In this document: piece after piece, positions 2,717 through 20,506 of the stretch
Position numbering within the stretch: the stretch's first letter is position 1
Layout of the letters: each line of letters starts with the position of its first letter
Assembly (NCBI GenBank): GCA_017510305.1
Contig: JAFWNO010000039.1
Coordinates: forward strand, 1-22,131
Direction: 5' to 3'
DNA from: Candidatus Saccharimonadota bacterium
GTDB taxonomy: Bacteria > Patescibacteriota > Saccharimonadia > Saccharimonadales > Saccharimonadaceae
Length of the DNA: 22,131 nucleotides
The notes under the pieces: generated by a model
Databases searched by the model: none
What the model was told of the DNA's origin: nothing
What the model saw: the letters and a program-made list of their open reading frames with translations, nothing else
Translations under genes and position numbers: made by a program

Positions 2717-4987
2717 ATGGATATTATAAATCCAAATGGTAAAAAGATGGTAAAAGTCTCTACAGAACTTTGCGGGAGAGAACTATCTTTAGAGGTAAAT
2801 AGAGTAGGTTTTCGCTCTACTTCTACGGTAGTGGTGCAGTATGGTGATACGGTAGTGCTAGGCGTGGCACAGGTGAGCGATAGGCCAGTAGAGCAGGACT
2901 TTTTCCCACTGTCGATTGATTACGAAGAAAAGTTTTATGCAGCGGGGAAGATTTCTGGCTCGAAGTTTATTAAGAGAGAGGGTAAGCCAGCAGACGAGGC
3001 AATCTTAGTTGGGCGCTTGATTGATAGGCCGATTCGTCCGCTATTTCCAAAGGGTTATCGCCAAGAGGTACAGGTAATTACAACTGTTTTGTCGATGGAT
3101 CCAAATTTCCGGCCAGATGTGGTGGCGATGATTGCAGCATCTTCGGCGCTGATGAATGCTGGTGTGCCATTTGATGGGCCGGTAGCGGGGCTAAGAATTG
3201 GCAGAGTAAATGGTGAATTTAAGGCATTTTTGACTCCTGAAGAAAGGGAAGCATCCGATTTGGACTTAGTTGTAGCAGTGAAAGATGAGAAGGTGGTGAT
3301 GGTGGAAGCTGGTGCGAAAGAAGTGCCAGAGGCAGTGATTATTGATGCGATGCGCTGGGCAGTGGAACAGGCACAGCCAGCTTTGAAATTACAGAGAGAG
3401 CTACGCGAGAAACTAGATGTAGAAGAAAAGGAATATGAGCTACTTCTGCCAGATGAGGATATCCAGAAAGAGGTGGATGCTTGGACTGCGCCACATTTTG
3501 CCGGCGGGAAAGTGCGTGGCAATGTGATAGAGAGGCATAAGATTTTGGAAGAATTAGAAGAGAAGTTCCACGCGGAGATGCTGGAGCTTCATGCGATTTC
3601 CGAGACGGAGGAGAATTCTAAGTTGGCTAAGGGTGGACTAAAGGAAATTGCTGAAAATGACCATATTACAGTAGAGCAAGCAGAGGAAAGAATTGTTTCT
3701 GAAAAGGAAGCATATTATGAGGAAATTTTGAAGAAGGAATATGCAAATGCCTTTGAACTATCTGTGCATCACGAAGTGCGTCGAGCGATTGTAGAGGAAG
3801 GTGTGCGCCCAGATGGTAGAAAATTGACAGAGGTGAGGCCGCTATCTTCACAAGTAGGAATTTTGCCAAGAGTGCACGGATCCTCGCTGTTTACACGCGG
3901 TTTAACGCAAGCAATGAATATCGTGACATTGGCGCCGCTATCCTTTGCGCAAATTGTAGATACGATGGAGGTGACGGATGGTAAGCGCCGCTATATGCAT
4001 CATTATAATGCGCCAAGCTGGACGGTGGGTGAATGCGGTAGGCTTGGCTCGCCGGGGCGCCGCGAGATTGGACACGGGTATTTGGCAGAGAGAGCACTGC
4101 TGCCGGTGCTACCTTCTGAGGAAGAATTCCCATATGCGATTCGTTCGGTGACAGAAATTATGTCCCAAAATGGCTCTACATCAATGGCGGCGACCTGTTC
4201 ATCTTGTATGGCATTGATGGATGCAGGTGTGCCTCTTAAGCGGCCAGTATCTGGCGTAGCGATGGGGCTGATGATGGATGTAGAGAAGGGTAAGGATATT
4301 ACGCCGGCAGATATTGATAAGGCTTATACTTTGACGGATTTGATGGATGCGGAAGATTTTGCTGGTGATATGGACTTTAAGGTGACCGGTACAACAGAAG
4401 GCGTGACGGCTCTTCAGATGGATATGAAAGTGCATGGCTTGCCGGTAGATATCCTAGAGAAGGCCATTAAACAATCTCACGAGGGAAGAATGCATATTTT
4501 GGCACATATGCTGTCGGTAATTCCGGAGCCGAGGGAGAAATTGTCTGATAATGCACCGCAGATTGAGAAAATAAAGATTGATCCAAAGAAGATTGGTACG
4601 ATTATTGGCAAGGGTGGCGAGACAATTAATGCGATTACTACAGAGACTGGTGCCGGTGTGGATGTAGATGATAGTGGACTTGTAACAGTATCTGGGCCGA
4701 ATGCGGAAGTGATTGCGAAGGCTGTGGAATGGATTAAATCTTTGGTGGAAGAGCCAGAAGTAGGGAAGATTTATACTGGTAAAGTAGTAAGTATTAAGGA
4801 TTTTGGGGCGTTTGTGAATATCTTGCCGGGGATTGATGGAATGCTACATATTTCGCAGATTGCGGATAAACGGATAGATAAGGTGACGGACGTGCTATCT
4901 GAGGGGGATACTGTGAGAGTGAAGCTGACGGCGATTGATGATAGGGGGAAGTTGAGTTTGTCGATGAAGGGGGTGGCGCAGAAGTAG
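2717..4987 (+). CDS. pnp: Polyribonucleotide nucleotidyltransferase (PNPase)
   Basis: PNPase degrades RNA 3' to 5' by phosphorolysis and can add tails. The 756-residue product has the complete family layout: first RNase PH domain near 15-150 (FFPLSIDYEEKFYAAGKI, then RLIDRPIRPLFP), a helical linker, the second catalytic RNase PH domain from about 345 (RPDGRKLTEVRPLSS, GSPGRREIGHG, FPYAIRSVTEIMSQNGS, AEDFAGDMDFKVTGT with the metal-binding Asp residues), a KH domain near 615-680 with IIGKGG, and an S1 domain near 683-752 (GKVVSIKDFGAFV, GMLHISQIA). Nothing is missing. It is a single-gene unit with a folded leader and a strong terminator. With RNase Y at 15194 it supplies core mRNA decay. Confidence 0.98.
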   Translation: MDIINPNGKKMVKVSTELCGRELSLEVNRVGFRSTSTVVVQYGDTVVLGVAQVSDRPVEQDFFPLSIDYEEKFYAAGKISGSKFIKREGKPADEAILVGRLIDRPIRPLFPKGYRQEVQVITTVLSMDPNFRPDVVAMIAASSALMNAGVPFDGPVAGLRIGRVNGEFKAFLTPEEREASDLDLVVAVKDEKVVMVEAGAKEVPEAVIIDAMRWAVEQAQPALKLQRELREKLDVEEKEYELLLPDEDIQKEVDAWTAPHFAGGKVRGNVIERHKILEELEEKFHAEMLELHAISETEENSKLAKGGLKEIAENDHITVEQAEERIVSEKEAYYEEILKKEYANAFELSVHHEVRRAIVEEGVRPDGRKLTEVRPLSSQVGILPRVHGSSLFTRGLTQAMNIVTLAPLSFAQIVDTMEVTDGKRRYMHHYNAPSWTVGECGRLGSPGRREIGHGYLAERALLPVLPSEEEFPYAIRSVTEIMSQNGSTSMAATCSSCMALMDAGVPLKRPVSGVAMGLMMDVEKGKDITPADIDKAYTLTDLMDAEDFAGDMDFKVTGTTEGVTALQMDMKVHGLPVDILEKAIKQSHEGRMHILAHMLSVIPEPREKLSDNAPQIEKIKIDPKKIGTIIGKGGETINAITTETGAGVDVDDSGLVTVSGPNAEVIAKAVEWIKSLVEEPEVGKIYTGKVVSIKDFGAFVNILPGIDGMLHISQIADKRIDKVTDVLSEGDTVRVKLTAIDDRGKLSLSMKGVAQK

Positions 4988-5053: not shown

Positions 5054-6865
5054 TTACCAGCCACCGCCGCCGCCCCCACCGCCTCCGCCGCCGGAGAAAC
5101 CGCCACCACCAGAGCCGGAGGAGGAACTGCTAGAAGACATTGTAGCTAGGGAAGAACTCATAGAGCTGATGGCGGAAGTGAAATCGCGAGTATTGAACAT
5201 AGTTGTGCCGATATACCAAGATGGGGTGAGTCTTGGATTTTCATCGTAATAGACTTGAAGCTGTTTGAGCCAGCTTTTTTCCATACCAAAGAGAGAGGCA
5301 TAGGGAAGTAATCTTTCGTATAATTTGACTCGACCTTCGGTGTCTTTTGGAGCACCATCGGTGGATTGATTAAATGTGAGACGATCCTTTTCGGCGAGGC
5401 CGATATATTCTTTGAGGCCGGCGGCGTAATTGGAAGCGTCGAGACCGGTGCGAGTATATTTAGAGTATTTTGTAATTTGCTTGATGAGGAATAGACTGGT
5501 GATAAGAGTGGCTATGGCAATGATTGGTGTGGCAGCCCAAAAGATATCTTCGCCAATGAGGGTAGCATAATTATAATCAAGTAGAGTAATTAGGCCGTAG
5601 AAGCCACCGATGAGGGCAATGACATATAAAACAAGGAAGAAAGTTGGCAGGCCAGAATGAGTTTTTTCAACGAATAAGCCTTTTTTGACGAGGGATGATT
5701 TGAGATTAATGGGAAAAGCCGTGATGAGGGAATGGCGAGTAGAAGAGTAGCTAGAGTATTTTTCAATTGGAATTTCTTCATCGATAGTAAATTGTTTTTT
5801 GCTGCCGGCGAAGATTTGGAGTGTCTGGAGCTGGTCTGATGTTAAATTGTTGGCATCTTTGATGCGGATGGACCATTTCTTTTTGTCGGTCTGGATAAGC
5901 TCGACTTTGTGGGAGACGGCAAGCTCTAGGAGATTTGCCACTTGGAGATTTCTGGTGCTGCCAAGATAAACAGTGCCAAGCTCGGCGGCAGTAAAGCCTT
6001 TTAGGGGGATGTATTGAGCAGGCGTGAGAAGATCTTTATAGTATCTTTTATCATTGCGAGCGTATTTATTGTAGGCGGTGACTAGGTAGGTGATGAGGGC
6101 GATGGAAATAACGGAGAGAATTGCGAGGATGATAAGAAGAAGATAGCTTTCGTGGTGGATGATAGTGAAGGTGCCGGCAGGGAATTTAACGGCCATGGTT
6201 AAGTTCTCGCTACTTTTAAGATTTTCTGTTTTGAAGGAGAGTCCATCGGAAATGTTGTTTATTTTACAACGTGATTGATTGTTGCTGCCGTGGCGGCCAA
6301 CATAGCACCATGTATTATCGGTGGAAGGAATCTTGATGTCGTTTGCAAAGTGGAGATTGGCGGTAAGGGAATTAAACTTCTGCGACCAGCCGGTGCCGTT
6401 GGTATCCCAATACAATTCTTGATAGCCATCAAATTCGGTGATGACATTTTCAAATTCGTATTCTAGGACATAGACTTGCTTGCCGTGGACATAGGAATTG
6501 GCATCGCCAACATAGACGATAAAAGAGCCATAGTTTGATTGATTTTCAATTTTGGCGACAGGCTCGGGCTGGCCGTTTCTAGTGACGGAAAGGTCTAGAT
6601 GAGTAGAGCTTTTCATGGTGAGATTTTTGCCGTTTTGATTGGTGTAAGGGATGACGCGAGTGATGCCGTGATTTTGATTGGTATCTGGAAAGACGGCGGT
6701 GAGAATTTCTTTGACTTTCATTTTGGATGAGCCATCTTCGGCTTTTGATAGATAATAATCAAATTGAGCGTCTTCAAAATAGAAATCGTTGGCGGTGGCG
6801 CTGGCAGGTAGGATGCCGATAATGCTAATAATAAGTGTAGTAAGGGCAACAAGAATTTTTCTCAT
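5054..6865 (-). CDS. DUF2207-type predicted membrane protein with Ser/Gly-rich tail
   Basis: The start chosen is ATG 6865, which gives MRKILVALTTLIIS and a signal peptide ending near ASA. It lies 6 bases after TATAAT; the frame continues upstream to 6988 but runs through the promoter. The 603-residue protein has a signal peptide, an exported beta-rich domain of about 230 residues (DFYFEDAQFDYYLSKAEDGS, ITRVIPYTNQNG), a membrane segment (LLLIILAILSVISIALITY), a cytoplasmic part, two more membrane segments (FFLVLYVIALIGGFYGLI, ATPIIAIATLITSLFLI) and a C-terminal Ser-run plus Gly-run ending in Trp. This layout is typical of DUF2207 (YciQ-like) proteins, whose function is unknown. The gene is monocistronic, divergent from ftsK and convergent with pnp. 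Confidence 0.85.
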   Translation of the reverse strand: MRKILVALTTLIISIIGILPASATANDFYFEDAQFDYYLSKAEDGSSKMKVKEILTAVFPDTNQNHGITRVIPYTNQNGKNLTMKSSTHLDLSVTRNGQPEPVAKIENQSNYGSFIVYVGDANSYVHGKQVYVLEYEFENVITEFDGYQELYWDTNGTGWSQKFNSLTANLHFANDIKIPSTDNTWCYVGRHGSNNQSRCKINNISDGLSFKTENLKSSENLTMAVKFPAGTFTIIHHESYLLLIILAILSVISIALITYLVTAYNKYARNDKRYYKDLLTPAQYIPLKGFTAAELGTVYLGSTRNLQVANLLELAVSHKVELIQTDKKKWSIRIKDANNLTSDQLQTLQIFAGSKKQFTIDEEIPIEKYSSYSSTRHSLITAFPINLKSSLVKKGLFVEKTHSGLPTFFLVLYVIALIGGFYGLITLLDYNYATLIGEDIFWAATPIIAIATLITSLFLIKQITKYSKYTRTGLDASNYAAGLKEYIGLAEKDRLTFNQSTDGAPKDTEGRVKLYERLLPYASLFGMEKSWLKQLQVYYDENPRLTPSWYIGTTMFNTRDFTSAISSMSSSLATMSSSSSSSGSGGGGFSGGGGGGGGGGGW

Positions 6866-18411: not shown

Positions 18412-18513
18412 TTCTTGAAAAAATTACCAATCTTAGCGTTTTTCTTTGCTTGCTCTATCAGAAATAGCGCGGCGCAAGGAGAAAACGCCAACCTTGGTAA
18501 TTTTTTCTAAGAA
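18412..18513 (+). terminator. Long 3' hairpin after the DUF308 gene
   Basis: The left arm at 18412-18444 and right arm at 18481-18513 pair along most of their 33 bases, including AAAAAATTACCA with TGGTAATTTTTT and AGCGTTTT with AAAACGCC (one mismatch). The inside can also fold (TTGC/GCAA and CTAT-CAGAA-ATAG). It starts at the base after the stop codon. The T-run (18501-18506) lies inside the right arm instead of after it, so it is not a standard terminator. It could act as a terminator, an RNA-protecting 3' structure or a repeat element. Confidence 0.55.
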
Positions 18514-18536
18514 TTAATGTTTGGGTGATTTTTTTG

Positions 18537-18565
18537 TTGTAAAAATGGAAATGATTGTGTATAAT
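18537..18565 (+). promoter_or_regulatory. Promoter of the surface protein gene
   Basis: TTGTAA (18537-18542), a 17-bp spacer, then TATAAT (18560-18565). The expected first base is near 18572, exactly where the folded leader begins. Confidence 0.65.
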
Positions 18566-18571
18566 AGTAAG

Positions 18572-18781
18572 TGGATTACATTAGTATTAAAAAGCACAAT
18601 CGTTTTTTAGAACATTATTTATGATAAAACAGCAAAGCAAAAGTGTTGTCTCGGTGCCATAAGCCACAGAGGCTAATGCTCTTGCTTTGCAGGTTGTGTG
18701 ATGCTAATGTAATCCAACTTATGGCACCGCGACAGGACTTAAGTCACTGGTGCTGAATATAGGATAAGATAGGAGGCACAA
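18572..18781 (+). ncRNA. Structured 210-base leader with potential pseudoknot, upstream of the surface protein
   Basis: Pairings seen: A, GGATTACATTAG 18573-18584 with CTAATGTAATCC 18704-18715; D, GCAAAGCAAAAG 18632-18643 with CTCTTGCTTTGC 18679-18690 (one mismatch); a tip hairpin AGCC-ACAGA-GGCT 18662-18674; and B, TGTCTCGGTGCCATAAG 18647-18663 with CTTATGGCACCGCGACA 18718-18734 (16 of 17). B crosses A and D, so it is either a pseudoknot or a competing fold. A further alternative pairs GGCACC (18723-18728) with GGTGCT (18749-18754). A 13-codon ORF (18621-18662) without ribosome site ends inside B. AGGAGG (18771-18776) precedes the GTG start. I match it to no known riboswitch, tmRNA or RNase P RNA. 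Confidence 0.6.
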
Positions 18782-20506
18782 GTGCGCATTAGCCAAAATA
18801 CAATATTATATCTATTTAAGATTTATGCTACCTTTTCCGTAGCATTTTTGTTATCTTATGCTATTTCTGGAGTTGTTTCTCCTATTTCTAACTCCTCTGC
18901 AGTTACTTGTGTGAATGGTATGATATCTGGCACTGATGATGTCTGTAGTAATGATACCACCGATGTCAATGTATCCATCGAAGGCGCTTGGACTGTAGCC
19001 GTATCCTCTTCTGGTACTCTAAATGTAGATGTTACGCCAAAAGGCTCTGGTACTACATCTACTACTACCGATAATGTTAATATCTACACTAATACTCCAA
19101 ATGGTTATCAATTATATCTAAACTCTACAACTGGTAGTACTGATATTTATAATAATAGTGATACAGAACATGAAAGAAATCACTTCATAGCAACAACTGG
19201 CACTAAAGATTCTCCTATAACCTTATCTTCTAACTCATGGGGTTATAGTCTATCTTCTAACCCTACTACCTTCTCTAAAGTAGAAACAAGTTCTAGTGCA
19301 GTAGATGCTCTGATTAGTACTGGTTCTAAAACAAGTGGTAGTGGAGATAATCTAGGAGTTACCTATGGCTTCAAGGCAGATACTAAGCTCACACCTGGAA
19401 CATATACCACTAGTGTTACCTATACTGCTGTAGCGGAAGTACCGAGTTATACTATTTCTAGCGCATCTCCCAATACTTTCTATACAAATGATCAGACTAA
19501 TAAACAAGTCACTATAGTCACTACTACCCCAGCTACAGAATTAGGTTTAGGTGATATCACTGCAAGAGTAACAGACGGTACTAATACTATAAATCTAACT
19601 AACTGTACCGAAACTACAGTATTAGTAGACACAACAAGCTACAGGGCTGCCACCTGTACTTACCCAGGCACATTACCTATGGGCTACTACAATGTGGAAT
19701 TAACCAGTAGTTGGCATAGTGCTACCTATACCTTAACAAATGGCTTTAGAATTAAAGATTATAGGAATATGAGTAATATTACCTATATGCAAGATATGAA
19801 TAGTGATATATGTGAGAATAGTCCAGAAAGTACAACCACTGCAGATAATAGGGTTACTTTAAAAGATAGTAGAGACCAGAAACAGTATAAAATCAGTAAG
19901 TTGGCAGACGGCAACTGCTGGATGGTGCAAAACCTAGCCCTAGATGGCGGAAGGATTTTGCATTCTTATGATAGTAATGTAACACAAGATAGAGAATTAT
20001 CAGCAAATGTCCCTACTAACACCACTCCGTCTACAAGTGTATCTCAAATATATTCTGACGGAACGACTACCACAGATACTTATGGCTCATACTACGGAAA
20101 CCTCTACAACTGGGTCGCTGCTACCGCTACTCTAGGTACAGAATCTTCAGGCCTGCAAAATATCCAGGAAAGCGTATGTCCACTTGGCTGGCATCTGCCA
20201 GACGCTACAGGAGAAAATAGTTACTCCTCGCTCTACACTACGCTTGGTTATCCTATAAGTGGCGCATCAGTTACACAAATGAATGTTATGCAACAGGCAC
20301 CTTGGTGGTCTCCGTATGCTGGCTATCGCGATGCACATGGCAGAGTACGTACTGGTCTTTCGGCAAATGTATGGACCAGGACTCGTGTACCAAATGATAC
20401 TAGTCGGGCATATGCTAATAGTAGAGATACGCAGGTTATGCAAACTGTACAATGGTCAAACGGTATAGGTGTTAGTTTCCCCGTTCGCTGCGTCTTCGGC
20501 AATTAA
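18782..20506 (+). CDS. Large secreted surface protein with IPT/TIG-like and FISUMP C-terminal domains
   Basis: GTG 18782 is chosen because AGGAGG ends 5 bases upstream. The 574-residue protein has an N-terminal signal or anchor (LFKIYATFSVAFLLSYAISG), a Thr/Ser/Asn-rich beta region to about residue 215, an IPT/TIG-like domain near 223-325 (YTISSASPNTFYTNDQ), and from about 360 a FISUMP-type domain (KISKLADGNCWMVQNLAL, YGSYYGNLYNW, VCPLGWHLPD, and the end VSFPVRCVFGN). Such proteins are abundant on Saccharibacteria and are presumed to face the host or matrix. Codons favour CTA, ACT, TCT and ATA, and the gene is AT-richer and low in GCG compared with its neighbours, which hints at a different history or strong selection. 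It is led by a long folded RNA. Confidence 0.85.
   Translation: MRISQNTILYLFKIYATFSVAFLLSYAISGVVSPISNSSAVTCVNGMISGTDDVCSNDTTDVNVSIEGAWTVAVSSSGTLNVDVTPKGSGTTSTTTDNVNIYTNTPNGYQLYLNSTTGSTDIYNNSDTEHERNHFIATTGTKDSPITLSSNSWGYSLSSNPTTFSKVETSSSAVDALISTGSKTSGSGDNLGVTYGFKADTKLTPGTYTTSVTYTAVAEVPSYTISSASPNTFYTNDQTNKQVTIVTTTPATELGLGDITARVTDGTNTINLTNCTETTVLVDTTSYRAATCTYPGTLPMGYYNVELTSSWHSATYTLTNGFRIKDYRNMSNITYMQDMNSDICENSPESTTTADNRVTLKDSRDQKQYKISKLADGNCWMVQNLALDGGRILHSYDSNVTQDRELSANVPTNTTPSTSVSQIYSDGTTTTDTYGSYYGNLYNWVAATATLGTESSGLQNIQESVCPLGWHLPDATGENSYSSLYTTLGYPISGASVTQMNVMQQAPWWSPYAGYRDAHGRVRTGLSANVWTRTRVPNDTSRAYANSRDTQVMQTVQWSNGIGVSFPVRCVFGN

Follow-up and report, generated by a model that had tools for sequence, protein, structure and literature searches.

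Leaders that fold into pseudoknots have been described in more than one setting: the SAM-II and preQ1 classes are translational riboswitches with pseudoknots, and the leaders of the S4-controlled alpha operon and of the S15-controlled rpsO gene are ribosomal-protein leader pseudoknots. Stabilising 5' stems, in turn, are known for abundant surface-protein mRNAs. For the Saccharibacteria (Patescibacteria), which are tiny bacteria living on other bacteria, little is known, to our knowledge, of how the proteins that meet their hosts are controlled. The DNA analysed here (22,131 nucleotides from a Candidatus Saccharimonadota bacterium, termed ‘the window’ throughout and meant at its full length) contains, immediately before a gene for a surface protein, a stretch that belongs to a large RNA-leader family of gut Saccharibacteria. 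It lies between promoter and gene, its relatives precede the same class of gene, and its helices covary, all of which are general marks of cis-regulatory RNA. The family is a real RNA family of a known kind, that of cis-regulatory leaders, and is unusual in both design and copy number. It was found neither in Rfam 15 nor in the searched literature on RNA regulation in Saccharibacteria and Patescibacteria, in which one article (PMC11665869) names riboswitches as possible tools.

The window leader follows a promoter-like site (TTGTAA-17-TATAAT, 18537..18565, on the forward strand like every window feature given below; 10 of 12 positions match), whose end at 18565 places the expected +1 at about 18572, the first base of the outer stem, A. 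Promoter-like sites are common by chance (two were found in the scanned stretch, against 1.4 expected), yet the same spacing between -10 box and stem A recurs in relatives. The 5' arm of A (18572..18589) pairs with its 3' arm, A' (18699..18716). In the window fold, A is continued inward by an extension, A2 (18594..18601 with 18692..18699, its last base overlapping the 18-bp version of A'), the equivalent of which covaries in relatives, and by a nested stem, D (18632..18640 with 18682..18690), which likewise covaries in relatives. D flanks and presents in its apical loop B5 (18641..18663, core 18647-18663), the 5' arm of a further helix, B; the 3' arm of this helix, B' (18718..18740, core 18718-18734), follows A' after one base, and B, with 16 of its 17 core pairs formed, crosses A. 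B' has a second possible partner, C (18747..18763), which starts 6 nt downstream of it (5-81 nt across the family, by script). Farther on lie the Shine-Dalgarno sequence AGGAGG (18771..18776) and the gene for a protein of 574 aa (18782..20506), and a predicted hairpin (18745..18754 with 18775..18784), whose 3' side takes in the GTG start codon as well as the last bases of the Shine-Dalgarno sequence, would close both once B5 captures B'. The protein has an N-terminal hydrophobic segment, judged by eye, and a C-terminal Fib_succ_major (FISUMP) domain that matches PF09603 with an E-value of 1.6e-6 and 29 bits, below the cut-off of 33.9.

An initial annotation of the window had proposed a structured leader beginning at the expected +1, a pseudoknot in which A is crossed by a long pairing, a third hairpin competing for the same strand, and a surface protein gene under its control. 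The arrangement just described agrees with it on each of these points: stem A starts at 18572 (the +1 itself being predicted from the promoter-like site), the crossing helix lies where it had been placed, the competing hairpin is that of B' (from 18718 on) with C, and the surface protein gene follows directly. As a whole the leader is far more stable than its composition would give (minimum free energy -71.4, against -47.0 +/- 4.4 in 200 dinucleotide shuffles, none of which was as good; z -5.6). Shuffle tests of single helices in the window gave p 0.14 for pairing in the D region and p 0.15 for pairing with C, and it is through the sequences of relatives, not by the window alone, that its D and C are established.

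Several observations concern the surroundings of the leader. Between a DUF308 gene and the leader lies an imperfect inverted repeat of 26 nt (18417-18507; 88%, 39-nt loop) with a T6 run near its end, which resembles a long terminator. Over 19000-20500 the GC skew flips sign inside the surface gene, and recR/ybaB-type genes face this gene. A tRNA and tmRNA search of the window found none, and a phage collection gave no match to 18420-20506.

That the leader matches no known riboswitch class, as also supposed in the initial annotation, is upheld by the database searches. Rfam 15 returned no matches for the window at gathering thresholds, and a search at E<=5 of the window locus and five relatives returned five matches, all far below gathering, of which two, to mir-153 (22.7 of 54 bits) and rivX (17.6 of 100), overlap the leader of one relative (L002) and were taken as chance. 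The T-box family, RF00230, gave no match at gathering in the window, nor at E<=5 in the window locus and the five relatives.

With the window leader as a blastn query, 45 of 196 genomes matched at E<=0.1, and all but one were taken as chance; the exception, in genome G079, is a clear homologue. Its leader is shorter and keeps the -10 box, A, D and B with altered letters: relative to the window, A and B each differ by one wobble, to which come a single double change in A and two in B. Within the 58%-complete genome from which the window comes, the DNA of the window leader occurs once. Beyond this homologue, a script was applied that describes the architecture (crossing stems in the order A-B-A'-B', with B' at most 5 nt after A'), membership being judged by hand from the -10 box, the B core and the downstream gene. 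Run without the promoter over 1.10 Mb of fetched loci, some of them overlapping, it gave 33 hits versus 6 in shuffled sequence, and at a score of at least 64 it gave 15 versus 0; nine of these 15 rows, representing eight distinct leaders, were judged members, and in every one of the eight a -10-like box lies 4-6 nt before A, except in L058 (13 nt). Anchored at a -10 box and run at a score of at least 50 over 1.03 Mb around relatives of the protein (loci chiefly from named MAGs of Saccharibacteria, of ruminant-gut and further origins, plus a few from other bacteria), it gave 12 hits versus 0 in shuffles, seven of them judged members and five of those new. Since 6 of 15 and 5 of 12 high-scoring rows were non-members, the shuffles understate what real sequence yields.

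The members found by architecture were selected for pairing, and their A and B are therefore not independent evidence, unlike D, C and the class of gene found downstream in genome G027. In that genome, scanned whole (39 pieces), the three best anchored hits were the only ones scoring at least 55 (none in shuffles), and all three precede surface-type proteins (507-603 aa long, each showing on inspection by eye a hydrophobic segment at the N-terminus), two of which carry a FISUMP domain according to a home-made profile. A member from RGIG5864 (L169), used as a DNA query, led to five more leaders in the window's own genome and to others in G197, which matches it at 100%. Altogether 73 copies were judged to be members (38, then 32 further, then L227, L258 and L265). 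They come from no more than 22 genome records, among which some named MAGs may coincide with others; the named ones are Saccharibacteria.

A census that made no use of pairing was based on the 15-mer CGGTGCCATTTTTGT, which comprises B' and the U-tract of one branch of the family, subfamily 2. It is present in 23 of 126 genomes of the genus (0 for the motif read backward), with 34 copies in G056, 41 in G064, 36 in G101 and 33 in G104, and the 34 copies of G056 lie in a single genome of 0.8 Mb. In an order-wide sample the motif occurred in 3 of 246 genomes (G056, G077 and the family-mate G207), and the control once. From the four genomes rich in copies 42 sites were fetched (31 of the 34 in G056, and 11 from the other three). 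Stem A was perfect over 14-21 bp, with a -10 box 3-6 nt upstream, at 41 of the 42, and measured 10 bp at the remaining site; in shuffles, A reached 11 bp or more in 9 of 210 cases and was joined by a -10 box in 1 of 210. B5 was found at all 42 sites (13-14 of 14 positions; the shuffle control covered A and the -10 box only), and a C-like copy of B5 lies downstream at 40. Of the 47 distinct sites among all those fetched, 44 show both A and the -10 box, the exceptions being L362 (10 bp), L264 (7 bp) and L292/L339. The 31 sites fetched from G056 carry 31 different A arms: the first 14 bases of each 5' arm match their own partner at 14.0 of 14 positions, as follows from choosing A as the longest perfect helix, versus a mean of 6.4 of 14 with the partners of other copies, and only 14 of 930 cross combinations reach 13.

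At the 41 sites with a full A, the 3-6 nt between -10 box and stem place the first paired base no more than about 3 bases away from the expected +1. This is the position that a constitutive 5' stabiliser would occupy, in which the paired 5' end and the pseudoknot protect the mRNA from decay and nothing switches. Such a stabiliser predicts neither that C should be a copy of B5, nor that B' should be nearly frozen, nor that the Shine-Dalgarno sequence should be relieved in the manner described below, and we consider it quite improbable as an account of the family.

The helices themselves are backed by comparison. In the first 17 leaders, measured against dinucleotide shuffles, the strands flanking B5 (D with A2) pair significantly in 15 (Fisher 1e-18), and pairing with C is significant in 10 (Fisher 1e-9); the window is outside both the 15 and the 10, and pairing of D and A2 played no part in the finding of the leaders. 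For subfamily 1, eight leaders were aligned, one of them (L169) found by pairing and the other seven by DNA similarity alone, with a structure taken partly from RNAalifold on the same alignment. In it, 22 of 57 pairs show double changes, a result that 0 of 500 shuffles equalled, and 95.8% of cells are paired over the 57 pairs, compared with 37-49% when the alignment is slid. By helix, double changes affect 12 of 18 pairs in A, 4 of 7 in A2 and 6 of 7 in D, and helix B is nearly invariant, 12 of its 16 pairs never varying. In subfamily 2 (11 leaders) A again has double changes in 12 of 18 pairs, and 94.7% of cells are paired in B and 95.8% in C; D, which MAFFT aligns poorly there, was left uncounted. 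B' is almost invariant in this subfamily, and B5 and C vary mainly through wobble steps that keep the pair. A nearly frozen strand beside wobble-changing partners fits a strand with two partners, and supports a real exchange between them.

Covariation in homologous leaders was the check that the initial annotation had set for its own structure, and its outcome is that A and D covary strongly in relatives, and that B shows compensation when the window is compared with G079 and, inside the two subfamilies, is mostly invariant or changed by wobbles. Helix B accordingly has little covariation of its own within subfamilies, a point that counts against the switch favoured below. These comparisons of sequence establish A, A2, D and B as helices of RNA, and B5 as well as C as a match to B'.

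The same comparisons bear on the idea of an element acting as DNA, with inverted repeats that serve recombination or protein binding. For such an element one would expect long inverted repeats, as are present in this multi-copy and diversifying family of genes, but not the near-fixed spacing from the -10 box, the crossing of pairs that are nested with D, or the 31 different A arms of one genome. Stem A also contains conserved U.G pairs (one pair in 8 of 8 leaders of subfamily 1, another in 9 of 11 of subfamily 2), as expected of RNA and unlike a DNA palindrome. The leader is not likely to be a DNA palindrome, and the probability of a DNA-level element of any such kind appears very slight.

Two further regularities were observed in the leaders. 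C is, by eye, a near-copy of B5 in L169, L117, L133 and subfamily 2, as if the switch had arisen by duplication of B5. Between the 5' arm of A and B5 (18590-18640 in the window), 35 of 36 leaders contain a run of at least 4 U, which often lies within or close to a small hairpin; 300 shuffles averaged 22.9 such leaders, and none reached 35. Two leaders (L271 and L274), whose A and B were mis-assigned by the script, were left out of this count and of the U-tract count given below, and are correctly aligned in the set of eight.

The sequences of A and D differ between subfamilies, and no pocket common to all of them was seen; across subfamilies only the B/C core and the U-rich stretch between A and B5 recur (by eye), subfamily 1 conserving other stretches too. 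These subfamily differences and the lack of a shared pocket make a small-molecule sensor less likely. Host contact, a ligand or temperature had been suggested in the initial annotation as what the leader could sense. For the trigger our guess is either a factor acting in trans or transcription and folding kinetics, and we favour either of these over an aptamer that binds a small molecule. CsrA was considered as a partner and rejected: PF02599 was found in 0 of 40 genomes of the genus (the 58%-complete genome of the window among them), and 3 of 14 control genomes were positive.

The genes behind the leaders are of one class. Behind the 42 census sites 33 genes could be read (nine sites offered none), and 32 of the 33 are FISUMP-like according to the home-made profile; in a set sampled round FISUMP genes, 8 of 8 downstream proteins have a FISUMP match at E<=2e-4. 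As exceptions, the frame behind L239 ends after 87 codons (7155 on), and those behind L002 and L169 reach the contig end. Viewed from the genes, a separate set of pieces contains 34 FISUMP ORFs, of which 25 have 200 nt or more of sequence before them. Among these 25, full leaders precede three (L320, L336 and L337), two more are preceded by ‘headless’ leaders that have a promoter, B' and a C-like copy and lack A and B5 (L339 in G077, with B' at 2052-2066 of contig C1 on the minus strand; L329 in G103, at about 6636-6652), and no leader was seen before the other 20. The automatic detector had overlooked the stem A of L320 and the B' motif of L339, both of which were recovered on re-examination.

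FISUMP genes were also viewed in their wider setting. PF09603 proteins are rare across the order, occurring in 9 of 148 sampled genomes (five of them of this genus), but some members of the genus encode many: G000 and G103 give 19 matches each. Close to the start codon, two paralogous surface genes of the window's own genome (L063, C20, about 3300-3309; L062, C15, about 40-49) contain runs of roughly ten G, resembling phase variation by slippage; L063, whose upstream region is visible, has a short leader with no structured switch.

Reverse transcriptases adjoin FISUMP genes at three loci (4836-5972 in L133, 3676-4812 in L122 and 1-693 in L160), and two of these FISUMP genes have a leader. The enzymes measure 379 aa where complete, with YVDD in L133; RVT_1 occurs in 25 of 40 genus genomes and was not found in the window's own, incomplete genome. 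About 380 aa is the size of reverse transcriptase that diversity-generating retroelements use. The placement of these enzymes suggests that such retroelements act on some of the leader-controlled receptors. As an explanation of the leader they were rejected, a reverse transcriptase lying beside only two leader genes in the scanned loci.

The account that we favour, with moderate confidence, is that the leader is a cis-acting two-state mRNA switch, in which B' pairs either with B5 (OFF) or with C (ON) and thereby alters access to the Shine-Dalgarno sequence. The transcript would begin at stem A, and A with its nested D would present B5 in an apical loop. In the first state B', just after A', would pair with B5 to form the pseudoknot, leaving C and its neighbours free to fold onto the Shine-Dalgarno and start region, and translation would be OFF; in the second, B' would pair with C, C would be occupied, and the start region would open (ON). 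The leaders thus probably switch surface proteins on and off, the direction and trigger of the exchange being, like the exchange itself, inferred. The headless leaders, which keep B' and a C-like copy in the absence of A and B5, count against this account; under it they would be always ON.

The proposed effect on the Shine-Dalgarno sequence is a prediction of fold models, in which the region from B' to the start was folded with B' captured or free and the cost of opening the Shine-Dalgarno sequence was compared. Eight of 38 leaders were left out (no start, or a start more than 110 nt after B'), and among the other 30, freeing B' lowered the predicted cost significantly in 18 (‘relief’), with 12 giving no significant relief and some the opposite sign (L336 -2.2, L283 -1.1). 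Divergent leaders showed relief at p<0.05 in 9 of 16 (median 3.0 kcal/mol, Fisher 1.7e-6). Subfamily 1 showed it in 7 of 7 (median 4.3 kcal/mol), a count that is not independent, as these are close paralogues, and that includes L274 with its B' mis-assigned; stem A of L320 was likewise mis-assigned in this test. In subfamily 2 it was seen in 2 of 7 and failed in 5 of 7 (median -0.6). An earlier and smaller set gave relief in 8 of 12 leaders, with 4 of 16 left out because their Shine-Dalgarno sequence lay more than 75 nt from B'. In subfamily 1, moreover, the CCTCC that lies between B' and C is the same in all leaders, and so is the GGAGG opposite it. For the window the model predicts a relief of 3.0 kcal/mol, with shuffles giving -0.2 (p 0.02). 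Its Shine-Dalgarno sequence is mostly closed in both modelled states (probability free 0.000 and 0.004), so that the relief would be partial, and its closing hairpin is no stabler than in shuffles (z 0.24).

A different output has to be weighed against the Shine-Dalgarno effect, namely transcription attenuation: helix B and the U-tract that follows B' would together make up an intrinsic terminator of pseudoknot form, read-through would be favoured by C or by the A/D hairpin, and any effect on the Shine-Dalgarno sequence would be secondary. The script detected a run of at least 4 T no farther than 9 nt from the B' core in 14 of 20 divergent leaders, 6 of 6 of subfamily 1 and 10 of 10 of subfamily 2, in total 30 of 36 leaders (the window being among the 36), against 7-9% of windows taken within the same leaders, and it is present even where B5 has little or no matching A-tract (L032, L002 and L115, for example). 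In several leaders, however, the U-tract, inspected by eye, does no more than pair with A-tracts in B5 and C; the window lacks a U-tract (GGCACCGCGACAGG); and the usual terminator pattern, searched with loops of 3-8 only, is absent from the window, where the loop of B measures 54 nt. With a U-tract in 30 of 36 leaders and none in the window, translation is the likelier output in the window and attenuation is a serious rival for the family, although as a general account we regard it as possible but unlikely. The two-state switch could also accommodate these tracts: in leaders that have one, formation of B may halt transcription as well, again giving OFF.

If the two-state switch is taken as the unit, the many copies invite a bolder reading, namely that they form an addressable set, with one B/C switch common to dozens of surface-receptor mRNAs in one tiny genome and an A stem of its own for each, genes being set ON or OFF separately by folding, by matching trans-RNA or by cell-to-cell chance. 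We hold this to be improbable; were it true, the surface could be varied with no change of DNA. In either case the family offers a testable handle on how Saccharibacteria control the proteins that meet their hosts, with one RNA design on receptor-like genes and up to 41 motif copies in a genome of 0.8-0.9 Mb. It is also an unusual natural experiment in RNA evolution, in which a nearly frozen strand with two partners stands beside stems that diverge from copy to copy.

Compared with the described systems, the leader resembles SAM-II and preQ1 in being a 5' leader with a pseudoknot that would compete with Shine-Dalgarno access, and departs from them in having no Rfam match in the window and five relatives, much longer helices, no pocket seen in all subfamilies, and dozens of copies in some genomes on a single class of gene. 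With the S4 alpha operon and S15 rpsO leaders it shares a leader pseudoknot that would control the start of translation, whereas the genes here encode surface proteins and a third strand, C, is present. Two mutually exclusive folds proposed near the start of a gene, together with a GGNACC-like core (by eye), resemble the T-box, which differs in that neither the window nor the five relatives match RF00230. Intrinsic-terminator attenuators are approached in the 30 of 36 members in which a GC-rich helix is immediately followed by a U-tract, but the terminator helix would here be a long-range pseudoknot, and the window has no such tract. Finally, the paired 5' end on a surface-protein mRNA is a feature held in common with the stabilising leaders of S-layer and outer-membrane proteins, from which this family is set apart by its switch strand, C, and by a different stem for each gene.
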